38,557 bases of DNA from Candidatus Lambdaproteobacteria bacterium RIFOXYD2_FULL_56_26. GTDB lineage: Bacteria; SAR324; XYD2-FULL-50-16. A program made the translations under genes and the position numbers. Below the pieces are notes generated by a model. It was not told the origin of the DNA and made no database searches. It saw only the letters and a list, made by a program, of their open reading frames with translations. Shown piece after piece: positions 4,539 through 36,731 of this stretch; position 1 is the first letter of the stretch, and each line of letters opens with the position of its first letter. Where the stretch lies: positions 1 through 38,557 of the forward strand of contig MFNF01000016.1 in the NCBI GenBank assembly GCA_001783715.1, written 5' to 3'.

Positions 4539-5384
4539 ATGTTAGATTCTTATCGAGAAGTTCGGGTCCTGGTCTCCAAAAGTGAGGCGGAAATGGCCGG
4601 TTGGTTGTTCGGGGAGGAAGGTGCCTTGGGCCTGGAGGAGGTCGGCGAGGTGGGCGACCGTCTGGAACTCAAGATCTATTTCCCGGACCAGGAAGACTTG
4701 GTGGTCCGGGCTTTGGAACGGGCCCAACGGTCCTTGGGCGACCGACTGACCGTGGGCGAACAGGCCCACCGACCGGCGGAAAACTGGCAGGCTTACTGGA
4801 AAGTGCACTTTAAACCCCTGCCCATCGGCAAACGGTTTTTGGTCCGCCCCCCCTGGGAGACCAACCCGGAGCCGGGGCGGCTGGAGATCGTGATCAACCC
4901 GGCCCAGGGGTTTGGCACCGGATACCACGAAACCACCAGGCTCACCCTCTTGGGGCTCGAATCCATCGCCGAGCAGGTTAACCAGCCCTTCATCGACGTG
5001 GGCACCGGCTCGGGGATCCTGGCCATCGGCGCACTCAAACTGGGAGCTCCTCATGGGGTGGGGCTGGACATCGAGGCCGAGGCCATTGCCGAACTACCCA
5101 TGAACCTGGAGCTTTCAGGCCTGGACCCCCGGCGGTTGGTCGGAGTCCTTGCCCGGCCTGACCAGTGGGACCACCCGGCCCCCTTGGTGCTGGCCAACAT
5201 CACCGGAGACGTAATCCTCCACTTTGCCGCCGACCTCAAGCGGCTTTGCACCGGGCACCTGATCCTTTCGGGGATCATGGTTCCCTACCTGGACCCGCTC
5301 AAACGGGCCTTTTGCGACTGGGACCTGACCTTTGAGGCCCAAGAGGGCGAATGGTACGGTCTGGTTTACCGGAGGCCCTTATGA
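4539..5384 (+). CDS. prmA: Ribosomal protein L11 methyltransferase
   Basis: PrmA uses S-adenosylmethionine to trimethylate ribosomal protein L11. The N-terminal third is the small substrate-recognition domain. The Rossmann methyltransferase domain follows with FGTGYHETTRLTLLGLE, the SAM loop DVGTGSGILAIGALKLGA, the acidic end of strand 2 (GLDIEAEAI) and the VLANI motif after strand 4. About 281 residues from ATG 4539 is usual for the family. The frame also allows a TTG at 4506, but ATG 4539 has a GAGAG-like site upstream. The stop overlaps the glgX start as ATGA, so the two genes are translationally coupled although functionally unrelated. Confidence 0.92.
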   Translation: MLDSYREVRVLVSKSEAEMAGWLFGEEGALGLEEVGEVGDRLELKIYFPDQEDLVVRALERAQRSLGDRLTVGEQAHRPAENWQAYWKVHFKPLPIGKRFLVRPPWETNPEPGRLEIVINPAQGFGTGYHETTRLTLLGLESIAEQVNQPFIDVGTGSGILAIGALKLGAPHGVGLDIEAEAIAELPMNLELSGLDPRRLVGVLARPDQWDHPAPLVLANITGDVILHFAADLKRLCTGHLILSGIMVPYLDPLKRAFCDWDLTFEAQEGEWYGLVYRRPL

Positions 5385-29075: not shown

Positions 29076-30362
29076 ATGGAACCCAACCACCTCCCGAGCG
29101 ACCCAGGCCAAGAGAAAAGACAAACTTCAATGGGATTTGCCTTTGTTTGGGCCTTGTTCTCCCTCCTCTTCACCTGCCTTTTTCAATTTTTCTTAGACTG
29201 CCCCTCTGGCAAGGTTTACTCCCGCCCCTTACGTTTGCTCTTCTTGTTGGGCCTGTTTGGTTGGGGTGCACGGCCAGAGGGCTGGTTATTGCGTCTGCTA
29301 CAGTATTTACACAAACAACAGATTGAACCTAGGGATGTCCTTTTGGTCTTGGTTTCAGCCCCCTTTGTGGGTCTGGTCTGGTACTGGCGGAATCAGGACA
29401 AAATCAGAGAACTGGAGACCAAGGAAAGGGAAGTCAAAACCAAAGAAGACGAACTGGCTACCACCAAACTTCACCGGCAGATCGAACAACGGAAGCTGCA
29501 CCGAGAGGAATTGGGGACCTTGGCAGCGGAATTGGTTTCAGAGGATAAAAATGTGGCAGTACAGGCCTATTTGGATTTGGCCGAATATGCTGAAGGTCCC
29601 GAAGAGGACCGGGTTACCCGGAAGGCCCAGAATATAATTCTGGTAAATTTTTATGAAAAAATCCGTGAAAAGGACCAAAAAAACCGAGCGGATTTGCACG
29701 ATGCAATAGTTTCAATGGTATTTCCCGGGGTAAGCGAAAAATCAAAAGAGCCTGAGTATTCGAAGGAAGTGTTTGAAACCGCAAAAAAGATCGATGTAGC
29801 AGTGTTTAAAGCGATTACAACGGATTTCGCATTGTGGATAAAAGAATACTTGGGCTCCGATTTGTCTTTGAAATTAAAAAATGAAAAGCCTGCAAAATTG
29901 CAAATCTATTTCCAATATTTTGACCCAGATCGGCTGCCCAAGGACCGGTTGGAGGCCAAATTTCATTACTGTTCCTTTGCAGGGATCAAATTTGAGAATT
30001 CGCTTTTTTAAAATTGCATTATTTCTGGAAGTTATTTCAGGGATTGTACCTTTTCAGGTGACCTGGAGGATTTTGCAATTCATGAGTCAATCCTGGAGGA
30101 TTGTGCGTTCCAGCCCAACGACAAACAAAAAAGTGCTGGTATCAGAATTATTATGGGCAAGGTCATGAATTGCTCTTCAGAAAACCCAATGCTCGAACTT
30201 CATAACTGTTTGTTGCTTTCAGATCCCAAGGCTTTTAGCTGCAAAAACGAAGATTCTGAGATCGGTTGGCCAATTGTTACTAGTTACAAAAATTGGGAAC
30301 GCGATTTTATAGACAACCTAGTGATAGATGAGCACCTAAGGACCGATTCGGAACTCCCCTAA
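29076..30362 (+). pseudogene. Membrane / coiled-coil / pentapeptide protein interrupted by one in-frame TAA at 30009-30011
   Basis: The first 311 codons encode hydrophobic segments at about residues 20-40, 50-66 and 87-104, a charged coiled coil (about 105-155), an alpha-helical region, and then pentapeptide-like repeats (HYCSF AGIKF ENSLF). A TAA stops this frame, but the same frame continues open for another 116 codons (30012-30359). It resumes the five-residue register at once: NCII, SGSYF, RDCTF, SGDL, then a mixed tail ending DSELP. One base change (for example CAA or GAA to TAA) would explain it. The first half uses GC-rich codons like its neighbours; from about 29640 on it becomes AT-rich, so the gene is a compositional mosaic. 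Either the product is truncated to 311 residues or the stop is an error or is read through. An alternative start is ATG 29130. No function assigned. Confidence 0.65.
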
Positions 30363-32209: not shown

Positions 32210-32679
32210 TGGGCTATTTGCTGATGACCTTTGCCCTGGTGGGGCTCGACCAACTGCTCAAGGTTTGGGTCCGGGCCAGCCTGACCGCCAACGATCTGGT
32301 GGAGGTGATCCCCAACCTGATCCACCTGACCTACCAGGAAAACCGGGGGATCAGTTTTTCCCTGCTCTCCCAAATGCCCGAAAGCTTGCGGCAACCCAGC
32401 TTGGCGGGGATCTCGGCCTTGGTGATCATGGGGCTGTCCGGGTACTTGGCCAAACAATGGTCTCAACTCGACCCTTGGGAGAAGCTGGGCTACCACCTGA
32501 TCCTGGCCGGGGCGCTGGGCAACCTGATCGACCGGACCTTCCGGGGCTCGGTGACCGACTACATGTACTTCCATTTTTACCAAACCTCCTTTTTTGTCAA
32601 CAATCTGGCCGACGACCTGATCAGCATTGGTTTTGTAGTCGTCCTGCTGCACAGTTTCCGACAACGACATGGCCGATAA
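32209..32679 (+). CDS. lspA: Lipoprotein signal peptidase (signal peptidase II)
   Basis: LspA is the inner-membrane aspartic peptidase that removes signal peptides from diacylglyceryl-modified prolipoproteins. About 156 residues with four membrane helices is normal. Conserved boxes: DQLLKVWV near the N-terminus, NRGISFSLL, LAGALGNLIDR with catalytic D108, and FFVNNLADDLI with catalytic D135 (canonical FNxAD; here VNNLADD). ATG 32209 overlaps the TPR-lipoprotein stop. The open frame extends upstream but without the right N-terminus. The 3' end overlaps the UbiD-family gene by 11 bases. Confidence 0.93.
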   Translation: MGYLLMTFALVGLDQLLKVWVRASLTANDLVEVIPNLIHLTYQENRGISFSLLSQMPESLRQPSLAGISALVIMGLSGYLAKQWSQLDPWEKLGYHLILAGALGNLIDRTFRGSVTDYMYFHFYQTSFFVNNLADDLISIGFVVVLLHSFRQRHGR

Positions 32680-34447
32680 ACCGCTCACCTCGACCCGCGC
32701 CCTGGTGGAGCGGCTGGATGCAAACCAGGAGCTCTGGCGCTTTGAAGCAGAGATCGACCCCAACCTGGAGCTGGCCGAGGTGCAACGTCTGGTCAGCGCC
32801 AAAAAAGGCCCGGCGATTTTGTTCACCAAGGTCAAGGGCACCAAGTTCCCGGTGGCCACCAATCTGTACGGGTCCACCCGCCGGATGGACTTGGCCTTTG
32901 GAGACCGGCCCAAACGGTTCATCGAAGAACTGGCCCAAACGGCGCTCAACCTGATGCCCCCCACCCCCAAGAAGCTTTGGGCCGCCCGAGGCTTGGCCTT
33001 GGAAGGGATCAAGGTGGGCCTGAAAAACAAATCCACCGGGCCGGTCTTGGCCGGAAAAATCGAACCGGTGGACCTGACCCAACTGCCCCAGCTCAAAAGT
33101 TGGCCCGAAGACGGCGGACCCTTTGTCACCTTGCCTTTGGTTTATACCCAAAGCCCCAAGACCGGCAAAGGCAACCTGGGCATGTACCGGATTCAGCTTT
33201 TTGACCAAACCACCACGGGGATGCACATCCAAATCCACCGGGGCGGCGGTTATCATCTCCATGAAGCGGAGGGGCTGAACCAACCTCTGCCTGCCCGTAT
33301 CTTTGTTGGCGGCCCTCCGGCCCTGACCTTGGCGGCGGTGGCTCCTTTGCCCGAAGACATCCCCGAACTGGTTTTTGCCAGCCTGTTGATGGGCCAACGG
33401 CTGGAAGTGGGGACCTTGGATTCTCTCAAGATTCGTATGGCCTTGGAAGCGGACTTTATGATCTCAGGCCTTATCCCGCCGCACCAGCGCCGCCCTGAAG
33501 GTCCCTTTGGGGACCATTACGGCTACTACAGCCTCCAGCATGACTACCCCTTTTTGCAGGTCCAAAGCCTGCACCACCGCAAGGATGCCATCTGGCCCGC
33601 CACGGTGGTGGGCCGTCCTCCCCAGGAGGACCATTACATTGCCGAATACCTCCAAGAGCTTTTGGAGCCCCTTTTCCCCCTGGTGATGCACCAGATCAAA
33701 AAGGTGTGGGCCTTTGAGGAATCAGGGGTGCACAGCCTAGCCGGGGCGCTGGTCAAAAACCGCTACCCCAAGGAGGCCTTCACTGCCGCCCTGCGCATCC
33801 TCTCCGAAGGCCAGTTGTCCCTGACCAAGTTCCTGTTGGTCACCGACCAAGAAGTTAATGTCAAGGACTTCCGGGCCTTGATCACCAAGATTTTGGAACG
33901 GGCGGACCTCAGGACCGACCTGTTTGTGCTTTCCAACATCGCCCAAGACACCTTGGACTACACCGGCCCCAAGGTGAACGAAGGCAGCAAGGCGATCCTG
34001 ATGGGCCTGGGGGAAAAGAAGCGAGAGCTAGCCCCCCATTGGGAAGGCCCCTTTGTGGAGCCCCGGTTGTTGGCGGCCCACCTCTTTTGCCCCGGCGTGC
34101 TTTGTGTGGGCGGAGTGCCTTACGACCAAGCCCAGGACCTGGGGGCCAAGTTGGCCCTGGAACCTTCGATCCAAGGGTTCTCTTGGGTGGTGCTCTTAGA
34201 CGACCCAAAGGCCGCCGCCCAAAGCAACGAGGACTTTGTCTGGCACTGTTTCACCCGCTTCGAGCCCGCCGCCGACCTTTACGGAGCCCAGCGGGTCGAG
34301 CGTTTCCATGTAGGGATCGAAGGGCCACTGGTGATTGATGCCCGGATGAAGCCCTGGTACCCCAAAGCCCTGACCCCGGACCCGGAGGTAGCGGCCCGGG
34401 TGCAGGAAAAATGGGGCCAAGAGATCGACCGGGTTTGTAAGGGGTAA
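32669..34447 (+). CDS. UbiD-family decarboxylase
   Basis: UbiD-type enzymes use prenylated FMN to decarboxylate aromatic or unsaturated acids, for example in ubiquinone or menaquinone synthesis. The 592-residue protein shows the family core: GMYRIQLFDQTTTGMHIQIHR, the PARIFVGGPPALTLAA block, and HQRRPEGPFGDHYGYYS with catalytic E277 and D282, then the VVGRPPQEDHYI segment. About 600 residues is longer than E. coli UbiD (near 500) and nearer to the type seen with the futalosine menaquinone route, so a quinone role is likely but the substrate is open. No UbiX flavin prenyltransferase is in the window. It starts inside lspA (11-base overlap) and is the last gene before the IS3-bordered island. 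Confidence 0.9.
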   Translation: MADKPLTSTRALVERLDANQELWRFEAEIDPNLELAEVQRLVSAKKGPAILFTKVKGTKFPVATNLYGSTRRMDLAFGDRPKRFIEELAQTALNLMPPTPKKLWAARGLALEGIKVGLKNKSTGPVLAGKIEPVDLTQLPQLKSWPEDGGPFVTLPLVYTQSPKTGKGNLGMYRIQLFDQTTTGMHIQIHRGGGYHLHEAEGLNQPLPARIFVGGPPALTLAAVAPLPEDIPELVFASLLMGQRLEVGTLDSLKIRMALEADFMISGLIPPHQRRPEGPFGDHYGYYSLQHDYPFLQVQSLHHRKDAIWPATVVGRPPQEDHYIAEYLQELLEPLFPLVMHQIKKVWAFEESGVHSLAGALVKNRYPKEAFTAALRILSEGQLSLTKFLLVTDQEVNVKDFRALITKILERADLRTDLFVLSNIAQDTLDYTGPKVNEGSKAILMGLGEKKRELAPHWEGPFVEPRLLAAHLFCPGVLCVGGVPYDQAQDLGAKLALEPSIQGFSWVVLLDDPKAAAQSNEDFVWHCFTRFEPAADLYGAQRVERFHVGIEGPLVIDARMKPWYPKALTPDPEVAARVQEKWGQEIDRVCKG

Positions 34448-34453
34448 GGGGTT

Positions 34454-34474
34454 CCAAAGGCCAGCGGCCTTAGG
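34454..34474. terminator. Hairpin just after the UbiD-family gene, no U-tract
   Basis: CCAAAGGCC (34454-34462), loop AGC, then GGCCTTAGG (34466-34474): 8 of 9 pairs. It starts 7 bases after the stop codon. No T-run follows. A nearly identical stem (CCAAAGGCC, loop GTT, GGCCCTTGG) lies at 36827-36847 after the permease gene on the other strand. Confidence 0.4.
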
Positions 34475-34724
34475 CGGAAAGGCTTTAGAGAAGCCTGAAA
34501 ATACGAGGAAATTTACCTCCAGGGATACGACTCTGCCGAAGCCTTACGCAAGGGATTGAAGGGGTACTTTGATTTTTACAACTTCGAGCGACCTCACCAT
34601 TCGTTGGGCGGCAGAACCCCCGCAGAGGTTCACGTTGGTTCAGACCCAATCCAGGGTCTGGCCGCTTGAACCAAGCCGGATTCTATCTTGTTTTGGCCGG
34701 ATTCGTGTCTGGACAATGGGGTCC
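34474..34724 (+). pseudogene. Remnant of the 3' end of an IS3-family transposase (OrfB) with its terminal repeat
   Basis: From 34502 to a TGA at 34668-34670 the frame reads YEEIYLQGYDS, then KGYFDFYNFERPHHSLGGRTPAEVH, the standard end of the IS3-family integrase-type transposase. Just upstream the homology continues in another frame as AERL-stop-RSLK (34474-34500), where the family has ERLWRSLK. So a Trp codon has become TAG and one base has been inserted at about 34501. The remaining DNA to 34724 is the non-coding IS end, finishing GGACAATGGGGTCC. The upstream catalytic part is absent. Confidence 0.85.
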
Positions 34725-34961
34725 TCTTCAGAGTATGCACACAAAGAAGCTCTTGCGAAATCGTACCATAGCTACAAAAAGCAAATTGAAGCTCTTGGTG
34801 AAACCTCAGAAGATTTGAAACTAAAACTGATTGAGCAAGCGATTGAGGTAATCGGTTACAATACTTCTGACACTTTAGATAAAAAACACGGTGTTCAGGC
34901 TCCATCGCATGCCATGTTGGATAGAATTCTGCAGGCCGTTAACCCAGGGGCTTCTAGGTGA
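34716..34961 (+). CDS. Small helical protein of unknown function, first gene of the island
   Basis: No family recognised. From ATG 34716 the product has 81 residues, almost all predicted helix: EYAHKEALAKSYHSYKKQIEAL, then DLKLKLIEQAIEVIGYNTSDTL and HAMLDRILQAVNP. The ATG, GGG and TCC codons are the last bases of the IS3 terminal sequence, so the IS end supplies the start and the original N-terminus may be lost. It lies 39 bases upstream of the nuclease-like gene on the same strand. AT-rich codons match that gene and differ from the rest of the window. A partner or regulator of the nuclease is a reasonable inference from position only. Confidence 0.5.
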   Translation: MGSSSEYAHKEALAKSYHSYKKQIEALGETSEDLKLKLIEQAIEVIGYNTSDTLDKKHGVQAPSHAMLDRILQAVNPGASR

Positions 34962-35000
34962 ATTTGCGTGCATTTTTTATTTTTATAGAGAGGACGGATA

Positions 35001-36440
35001 ATGGGAAAAAGAATACAGGGAATTTCGCTATCTGGGCACCTAAAAGCAGCTTACCATGTTGACCGGAAAGCCTTTTCTTCAACGGGTTCATTTGATCCGA
35101 ACCTCGTTAAAGACTCACCTTTTTTTATTGATCCAACCCTATTAGACGGTTGCAAGGAACCTGAATTTCTTAATTCAAGACAAGCGGTCCATACACATTT
35201 CGATAAAATTCTGAATCTTATCGCACTAAGTGAGAAAGTAGGAGACCGGGCATGGCGAGAGGCCAAGAAAATGCTAATTTTTCCTGAAGTCGCCAGTATG
35301 GGGCTAGGGTACTCAAAATCAAGTACTAGAGGGCGAGGGCTCGGGGAAAAAATAGCGGATACCCTGTTAGAAACAATTTCCTTACTAGTAGATTCTGGAA
35401 TTCGAGACCCGAATGTTTTTGAGTTGTTGGGGCTTTTTGAGCCAGGGGTTGGGACGGATTTAATCAGCGATATGATCGGGAATATCTTGCTCCCGAATTT
35501 TGAAAAATATTCACACCGAGTGTTTAACACATTAAAAGTTCAGCTTGTCCCGCACAAAGGAAAGCTTATTTTTCCGCACCCTATGGATGAAAGAATCCCT
35601 CTTCTTTTAGTCCCAAGAGACATTCTCTCCGATTTGCCTATAGCCCATGATTTTTCAGATATCGAGCGTGTTGTTTTTGAAAATGAAGAATTACGCAGGA
35701 GGTTTAATGAAATTTTAGGGAAAAGATGGAAAGAGCTTTTTAATAATGCGCCAAAACGAGAAATCAAAAAAGTCCTCATAGAGCATCCCGGTATTTTGAA
35801 AGAACTTCTGGAGACTTATCATTCAAAATCGGGGACAAAATATGATTTCACGTCCGATCCAAAAGGACTGATAAATTGGCAAATTGCTGCAGAAGATATT
35901 ATTAGTCGGTTTCCTCTACAGCTTTCATTCAAAATCCTGCCTCACCTCACCCGAAAGAACGTTTATAAGCTAGTTTGCGAATTGGCCGAACACTTTAAAC
36001 AAATTATCGAGTCCAACGGTTTATGGCGGAACTTCTATGCAGATCGAGGTACTTTCGCTAATCCTCTACACGAGTCTTATGGCCAGAATTTGTTTTTTTC
36101 TACTGCCTACCTATACTGCCAGCAGAAGAATATCGACATTTCTCCAGAGACTGATGCGGGAACAGGCCCAATTGATTTCAAATTCTCTCGCGGTACTCGT
36201 GAAAAAGTACTTGTAGAGTTGAAGCTTTCCACTAATGCGAGACTTGCGCATGCGTACACCAAACAAGTTCCGATATATCAAAAATCAAATCGAACCACAG
36301 ACTCCATTATTGTAGTGGTGATTGTATCTCAAAAAGAATCCTACCTTGAAAAATTAGAAGAAGAAATGAAGCGTTCACCAAATGGCCCCAAGGTGATTTT
36401 TATTGATGCACTTCAAAAGAAGAGTGCAAGCACGGCCTAG
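35001..36440 (+). CDS. Uncharacterised protein with a C-terminal PD-(D/E)XK nuclease-like domain
   Basis: The 479-residue product has an N-terminal domain I do not recognise (about 1-330, including SPFFIDPTLLDG and GVGTDLISDMIGNILLPNF) and a C-terminal segment with the restriction-endonuclease-fold pattern. E358 lies on the preceding helix (LHESYGQNLFF), D392 in GTGPIDFKFS, and E406-x-K408 in KVLVELKLS, followed by a helix with KQVPIYQKS and a hydrophobic strand (SIIVVVIVS). These are the expected metal-binding and catalytic residues. There are no helicase or methyltransferase motifs. ATG 35001 has GAGG seven bases upstream. With its AT-rich codons, IS3 borders and small upstream partner, it looks like an anti-phage or other DNA-processing gene gained by transfer. 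The defence role is inference; the nuclease fold is supported by motif order only. Confidence 0.7.
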   Translation: MGKRIQGISLSGHLKAAYHVDRKAFSSTGSFDPNLVKDSPFFIDPTLLDGCKEPEFLNSRQAVHTHFDKILNLIALSEKVGDRAWREAKKMLIFPEVASMGLGYSKSSTRGRGLGEKIADTLLETISLLVDSGIRDPNVFELLGLFEPGVGTDLISDMIGNILLPNFEKYSHRVFNTLKVQLVPHKGKLIFPHPMDERIPLLLVPRDILSDLPIAHDFSDIERVVFENEELRRRFNEILGKRWKELFNNAPKREIKKVLIEHPGILKELLETYHSKSGTKYDFTSDPKGLINWQIAAEDIISRFPLQLSFKILPHLTRKNVYKLVCELAEHFKQIIESNGLWRNFYADRGTFANPLHESYGQNLFFSTAYLYCQQKNIDISPETDAGTGPIDFKFSRGTREKVLVELKLSTNARLAHAYTKQVPIYQKSNRTTDSIIVVVIVSQKESYLEKLEEEMKRSPNGPKVIFIDALQKKSASTA

Positions 36441-36598
36441 TGCCAAAAACATGCAACATCAGTATGTGGCTATGTTTTCATAGGGCAATGTATTCGTTTG
36501 GCTTTCACAAAGAAAACACAAAGCCACTCTAGAAACCGCAATGAATTTAACAAAAATGGCGCAGGCCTATCATGAAGCCTCCCCTTGTATTTTGAAGT

Positions 36599-36731
36599 GG
36601 ACCCCATTGTCCAAACATAAATCCGGTCAAAATAAAATAGAATCAGGCTTGGTTTAAGCGGCCAGACCCTGGATTGAGGCTGAACCAAAGTGAACCTTTG
36701 TGGGGGTTCTGCCGCCCTACGTAAGAATAGT
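36599..36731 (-). pseudogene. Second remnant of the same IS3-family 3' end, inverted
   Basis: Read on the minus strand, this segment gives GGRTP, KVHFG and IQGLAA followed by a TAA, then the IS end through TTTGGACAATGGGGTCC. It matches the left remnant at about 105 of 118 bases. Upstream of GGRTP the match fades by about 36731, and a TAG replaces the Leu codon of HSLGG. Only some 130 bases survive. The 158 bases between the nuclease gene and this end hold no gene; a weak stem TGGCTTT/AAAGCCA is present. Confidence 0.8.

Follow-up and report, generated by a model that had tools for sequence, protein, structure and literature searches.

The segment from 34731 to 36592 of the window (the whole stretch of 38,557 nucleotides analysed from Candidatus Lambdaproteobacteria bacterium RIFOXYD2_FULL_56_26) is probably a small, horizontally acquired island with a lone PD-(D/E)XK nuclease, most likely a single-gene protein directed against phages or other foreign DNA. 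The features of the region, in window coordinates, are the following:

34484..34730, forward strand: left relic, the 3'-terminal part of an element of the IS3 family, consisting of a decayed transposase C-terminus followed by the terminal sequence GGACAATGGGGTCCTCTTCA; its tip points towards the island

34716..34961, forward strand: ORF of 81 aa, a gene remnant; the IS tip contributes residues 1-5, and residues 6-81 correspond to the C-terminal tail of a larger protein

34731..36592, no strand: AT-rich island enclosed by the IS tips, 1,862 bp, 40.9% GC

35001..36440, forward strand: intact gene for a 479-aa protein, with an N-terminal domain of ~340 aa and unrecognised fold, and a predicted C-terminal PD-(D/E)XK nuclease domain

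36593..36721, reverse strand: right relic, the same IS3 3' end inverted (inverted arm with exact tip); its tip points towards the island

The preliminary description reported that an IS3-family 3' end of about 118 bases occurs at both borders in opposite orientation with the terminus inward, and this was borne out: the inverted arms (34602-34735 and 36588-36721) are 134 nt each, 87% complementary and spaced by 1,852 nt. The terminal 20-mer GGACAATGGGGTCCACTTCA is found at 34711-34730 on the forward strand with one mismatch, at the left IS tip, and exactly at 36593-36612 on the reverse strand, at the right one; thus both tips face inward, like the inner ends of a composite transposon, and from left to right the transposase 3' end and its tip are followed by the island, the second tip and the second 3' end. 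In the left copy the IS3 integrase domain rve_3 (PF13683) matches above the cut-off at 34484-34621, a region with one in-frame stop (TGA), and the right copy shares 88% identity with the left across 129 nt. The arrangement resembles IS3-family composite transposons in that foreign cargo lies between two inverted copies of one IS with intact inner ends. It differs from them in that just the 3'-terminal ~130-250 nt of each copy are present, without transposase, and in the 12-13% divergence between the copies; the element is not mobile today. A complete IS with transposase and outer ends, or a target duplication, was not found in the window, which holds only 3' fragments, and no full-length copy of the element was seen in the genome.

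The island has the lowest GC content among all 1.86-kb stretches of the window (40.9%, against a mean of 56.5% and sd of 3.8%). The earlier statement that its composition differs from all neighbours is slightly too strong, because a second AT-rich stretch lies at ~29.1-30.4 kb. This other stretch (29076-30362) has 42-48% GC and contains an ORF of 311 aa with no family match above the cut-off. The island is preceded by a gene of the UbiD family (32669-34447) and followed, on the reverse strand, by a TauE/SafE gene (36867 onward), both confirmed with Pfam.

The island had been described as a two-gene module, a view that did not survive the analysis of the 81-aa ORF. Its start codon, ATG 34716, falls within the IS tip, which ends at 34730, and all its matches, by tblastn against plasmids and by blastp, begin at query residue 6 and cover the C-terminal parts of hypothetical proteins (residues 343-408 of 418, 323-379 of 401 and 353-427 of 431). 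These features show that an upstream gene was cut by the IS, with its tail left behind: the ORF is an IS-truncated C-terminal fragment of a larger coiled-coil/membrane protein, and the island has only one gene. A Pfam search of the ORF gave no match, and the full-length proteins of ~400-430 aa gave only sub-threshold Pfam matches, typical of coiled-coil and membrane proteins. Members of this coiled-coil/membrane family, the source of the truncated tail, were seen on Acinetobacter, Campylobacter and Vibrio plasmids (L021 4975-6231, L022 3035-4240, L023 3945-5240); they have no Pfam family and adjoin Tn7-like or AAA ATPase genes.

It is true that the two ORFs lie on the same strand, 39 nt apart, as would be expected of a true two-gene system with the helical 81-aa protein as adaptor or antitoxin. 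However, the ATG and the first five codons of the ORF are IS sequence, every relative of it is the C-terminal portion of a protein roughly five times its size, and no relative was found beside the nuclease at any of 90 homologue loci, which makes such a system extremely improbable. As a partner of the nuclease, the 81-aa ORF was ruled out by the exclusively C-terminal matches and its absence from these loci. No other conserved second gene was found either: no neighbour gene family occurs in more than ~10% of the 90 loci, and for this reason we regard the nuclease gene as standing alone. In the proposed course of events, two inverted IS3-family copies would have enclosed the island in the manner of a composite transposon, the left one would have cut off the upstream gene, and the outer parts of both would since have been lost.

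The 479-residue ORF had been credited with a PD-(D/E)XK signature, and the predicted structure agrees. An AlphaFold model built from an alignment of 77 sequences (pLDDT 87.1, pTM 0.87) places a PD-(D/E)XK core at residues 358-469 with the alpha-beta-beta-beta-alpha-beta topology (helix 358-375, strands 379-382, 393-397 and 401-409, helix 415-429, strand 435-441). The active-site motif consists of E358, D392, E406-x-K408 and Q422xxxY426, that is, the helix Glu, the active-site D with E-x-K, and QxxxY; E358, D392, K394, E406, K408, Q422 and Y426 are invariant in 77/77 relatives and E383 is kept in 76. At the domain level, the top Foldseek match was SfsA (prob 1.0), followed at lower rank by PspGI, Ecl18kI, EndoMS and Can2, all of them PD-(D/E)XK proteins. 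The nuclease assignment rests on domain topology and motif, since the whole-chain Foldseek search returned no significant match (E > 0.04). A profile search of PDB sequences gave no match, and the PDDEXK_9 and Cas4 profiles match a few relatives. Taken as modelled, the C-terminus is a PD-(D/E)XK nuclease domain with predicted activity.

The N-terminal 340 residues fold confidently alone (pLDDT 85.6), and a fold search against the PDB found no neighbour for them (best E 0.97, prob 0.06). They contain the invariant residues E96, G103, G111, D153 and D157, and the family carries the N-terminal motifs D..FIDP..L, LGYS..G.G.G and GxxRISD. At the very end of the protein there is a short, nearly invariant SAS motif (475-477).

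A less favourable view is that the gene is silent in the source genome, where it would survive only as an unbroken frame with no promoter, left behind between defunct IS ends. The truncation of the upstream gene and the decay of the IS copies, now 12-13% diverged, fit this view, as does a promoter scan of the DNA from the IS end to the gene, limited to the sigma-70-like type, which gave no match. On the other hand, a GAGAGG-like ribosome-binding sequence lies directly 5' of ATG 35001, and the 479-codon frame is intact with all motif residues kept. As the decay of the IS suggests a long residence, a useless gene should have broken by now, and we consider silence rather unlikely.

The preliminary description did not recognise the family, and our searches agree: there is no Pfam or NCBIfam match to the 479-aa protein at E<=1, and no known family with a role other than defence was matched. 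The protein does match phrog_30194 over its full length (E 1e-93) and belongs to the same family, which carries no functional annotation; tblastn against 50,697 phage records revealed no relative. Among PADLOC profiles, a distant relation was found with PDC-M36A (PDLC04597), where "PDC" stands for phage defence candidate (PMC11514479). This profile is matched by 76 of the 77 relatives, the 479-aa protein included, and shares with the family the overall plan and a related N-terminal region; however, the match of our protein is weak, reaching 27 bits over residues 35-164 only, against 789 bits for the real member L012, so that there is no full-length profile match. PDC-M36A is itself only a candidate, multi-gene in PADLOC as read from its name, and a literature search for PDC-M36 by name found no paper.

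Shedu (SduA) is a single-gene PD-(D/E)XK defence protein with an N-terminal regulatory part and a C-terminal nuclease. The likeness to the 479-aa protein is one of working plan only, one gene with an N-terminal part and a C-terminal PD-(D/E)XK nuclease; the family differs in having its own N-terminal motifs, and Shedu or DUF4263-type profiles in Pfam and PADLOC did not match the protein at E<=1. By the sequence tests made, the family appears to lie outside both Shedu and PDC-M36A, and by analogy it may work like Shedu.

No cognate methyltransferase was found in the island, nor a fixed methyltransferase neighbour in the 90 loci, which speaks against an ordinary type II enzyme. Lacking a methylase to protect the host, the nuclease would have to be conditionally active or modification-dependent. 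The latter option would make it a type IV restriction enzyme, whose N-terminal domain reads modified bases of phage DNA and whose C-terminal domain cuts. A stand-alone nuclease that is tolerated in its hosts without a fixed methylase partner would suit this role; moreover, the family often adjoins restriction-modification (R-M) genes, and a protein with an Mrr-type domain is among the weak viral fold matches. Nevertheless, neither Pfam nor the fold comparison revealed a known modified-base reader domain (e.g. SRA/PUA-like, EVE), and we give this option only about a one-in-five standing. In the broader reading that we prefer, a single-gene defence nuclease, the N-terminal domain would recognise an infection cue or a feature of foreign DNA and would license the C-terminal domain to cut either phage DNA or host DNA, the latter as abortive infection.

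Single-sequence scans of genome contigs and viral contigs with the 479-aa protein found no relatives; when 84,980 species genomes were searched with an alignment-based, pattern-limited scan, 474 contigs proved to encode them. The best 80 of these 474 (L024-L103) have identities of ~28-42% and represent at least 13 phyla, among them Patescibacteria, Cyanobacteria, Bacillota and Pseudomonadota. Relatives also occur on 14 plasmids, nine of them predicted conjugative, and many homologues lie on long, apparently chromosomal contigs. The homologue tree clusters largely by phylum, which argues for old families and against recent rampant transfer.

Closer to the source genome, the distribution is patchy, as expected of mobile cargo and not of a gene kept in one housekeeping context across the lineage: the full-length gene is present in one of ten genomes of the bacterial family and in one of 52 of the phylum, in both cases the source genome itself. 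A second genome of the family, G046, has only a distant cousin (L012), a true PDC-M36A matching its profile end to end, which also ends in a PD-(D/E)XK domain and adjoins DUF5343 and DUF4145 genes. In L012 (113-2802) these form a three-gene array of DUF5343 (with a PDC-M34A match), DUF4145 and PDC-M36A with its PD-(D/E)XK end, likely a complete candidate defence operon. In the sister genus genome G051, which contains relics of the same IS, UbiD and TauE are each followed by another host gene with no island; because they are on separate contigs, this shows absence of the gene and not a clean empty site.

The genomic context of the homologues was compared with 60 control stretches from 20 of the same genomes, taken on the same contigs tens of kilobases or more away. 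The preliminary description had asked whether homologues sit in defence islands more often than chance, and they adjoin defence genes more often than control DNA does: R-M-related genes were detected within ~8 kb for 15 of the 79 homologues but in none of the 60 controls (p=1e-4), in a test where some search seeds came from the tested loci and a seed's own locus was not counted; the same test detected no R-M gene within ~8 kb of the other 64. Recombinases are near 24/79 homologues and 0/60 controls (p=2e-7). When only the 20 loci whose genomes gave controls are considered, the R-M signal is weaker (3/20 vs 0/60, p=0.014) and that of recombinases is 6/20 vs 0/60 (p=1e-4). Smaller R-M tests, underpowered, gave 9/80 vs 0/20 (p=0.12) and 16/79 vs 0/20 (p=0.019).

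With PADLOC, the nearest six genes at the same 20 loci included type I, IIG and III R-M, a CBASS cyclase and 2TM effector, DrmMI and SoFic, as well as several PDC candidates; controls gave only a handful of generic matches. The corresponding count, 124 families beside homologues vs 7 in controls, overstates the enrichment because one methyltransferase matches dozens of families, and for this reason we relied on the R-M and recombinase test against 60 controls. Individual plasmid loci have SIR2, GIY-YIG, AbiE, methyltransferase and helicase neighbours. In three Bacillota loci (L080, L086, L103) the homologue belongs to a shared, conserved array whose helicase-like genes are very large (a ~950-aa helicase, a ~1,600-aa protein, the nuclease, a ~2,100-aa DEAD-like helicase and a ~530-aa protein), which looks like a DISARM-like or unnamed multi-gene system. 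Thus the earlier view of mobile, defence-like cargo finds support in the patchy occurrence, the location on plasmids or beside recombinases and the R-M association above controls, and a defence role of the 479-aa family is plausible, with statistical support.

The same location on plasmids, mostly conjugative by prediction, the recombinases near homologues, and the toxin-antitoxin genes and integrases beside plasmid copies could also mean that the protein serves the mobile element, by interference with competing plasmids or as a toxin-like stabiliser, rather than in phage defence. Such service seems unlikely, somewhat more so than silence or modification-dependent restriction: the 90 loci show no conserved antitoxin-like neighbour and many copies are apparently chromosomal.

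The IS tip (<=3 mismatches) has 11 copies in the source genome, against none for a reversed control pattern, and besides the pair in the window two more inward-facing pairs enclose AT-rich DNA, on contigs C62 and C45. By our own estimate, ~0.02 chance inward pairs within 2.5 kb are expected for 11 tips in 3.08 Mb, a figure to be read with the fact that the second C62 tip has 4 mismatches and that, if as many are allowed, there are somewhat more than 11 tips. On C62 the arms (94 nt, 84%) are 2,448 nt apart and the island (L155 433-3068) holds a type II R-M pair, a methyltransferase of 535 aa (614 bits) and an endonuclease of 247 aa (398 bits) by PADLOC; the IS tip itself supplies the stop codon of the endonuclease. 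This pair is followed by a tyrosine recombinase and a Fic-like gene. On C45 the arms (30 nt, 87%) enclose a low-GC DUF4238 gene (L153 3363-4606), adjoined by a MazE/MazF-like gene pair, identified by eye at 4774-5336, and a further inward tip.

Near the end of contig C9, a type I R-M operon (HsdR, HsdS, HsdM; L177 14-5623) ends 39 bp from an IS tip. The end of this contig carries an AT-rich ORF of 123 aa that is found again where contig C11 begins. The IS does not specialise in carrying defence genes, since beside the tips of its copies on C11, C15, C52 and C55 there is no AT-rich island. We propose, tentatively and at somewhat less than even confidence, that the conserved N-terminal domain represents a new sensor fold in a widespread family of single-gene immune nucleases, and that IS3-bounded composite elements in this lineage repeatedly carry single defence modules: the nuclease in the window (contig C16), the R-M pair on C62, DUF4238 on C45 and possibly the type I R-M on C9.

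The 479-aa family is widespread (474 contigs) and has no annotation in Pfam or NCBIfam; as it is also compact and consists of a single gene, laboratory hosts should allow it to be assayed easily. If it proves protective against phage, it would add a restriction-fold nuclease joined to a new sensor domain, and the cue to which a nuclease with no partner responds would become directly testable. Moreover, the presence of three IS3-bounded islands in a single genome suggests a way in which individual defence genes can move and later be fixed.
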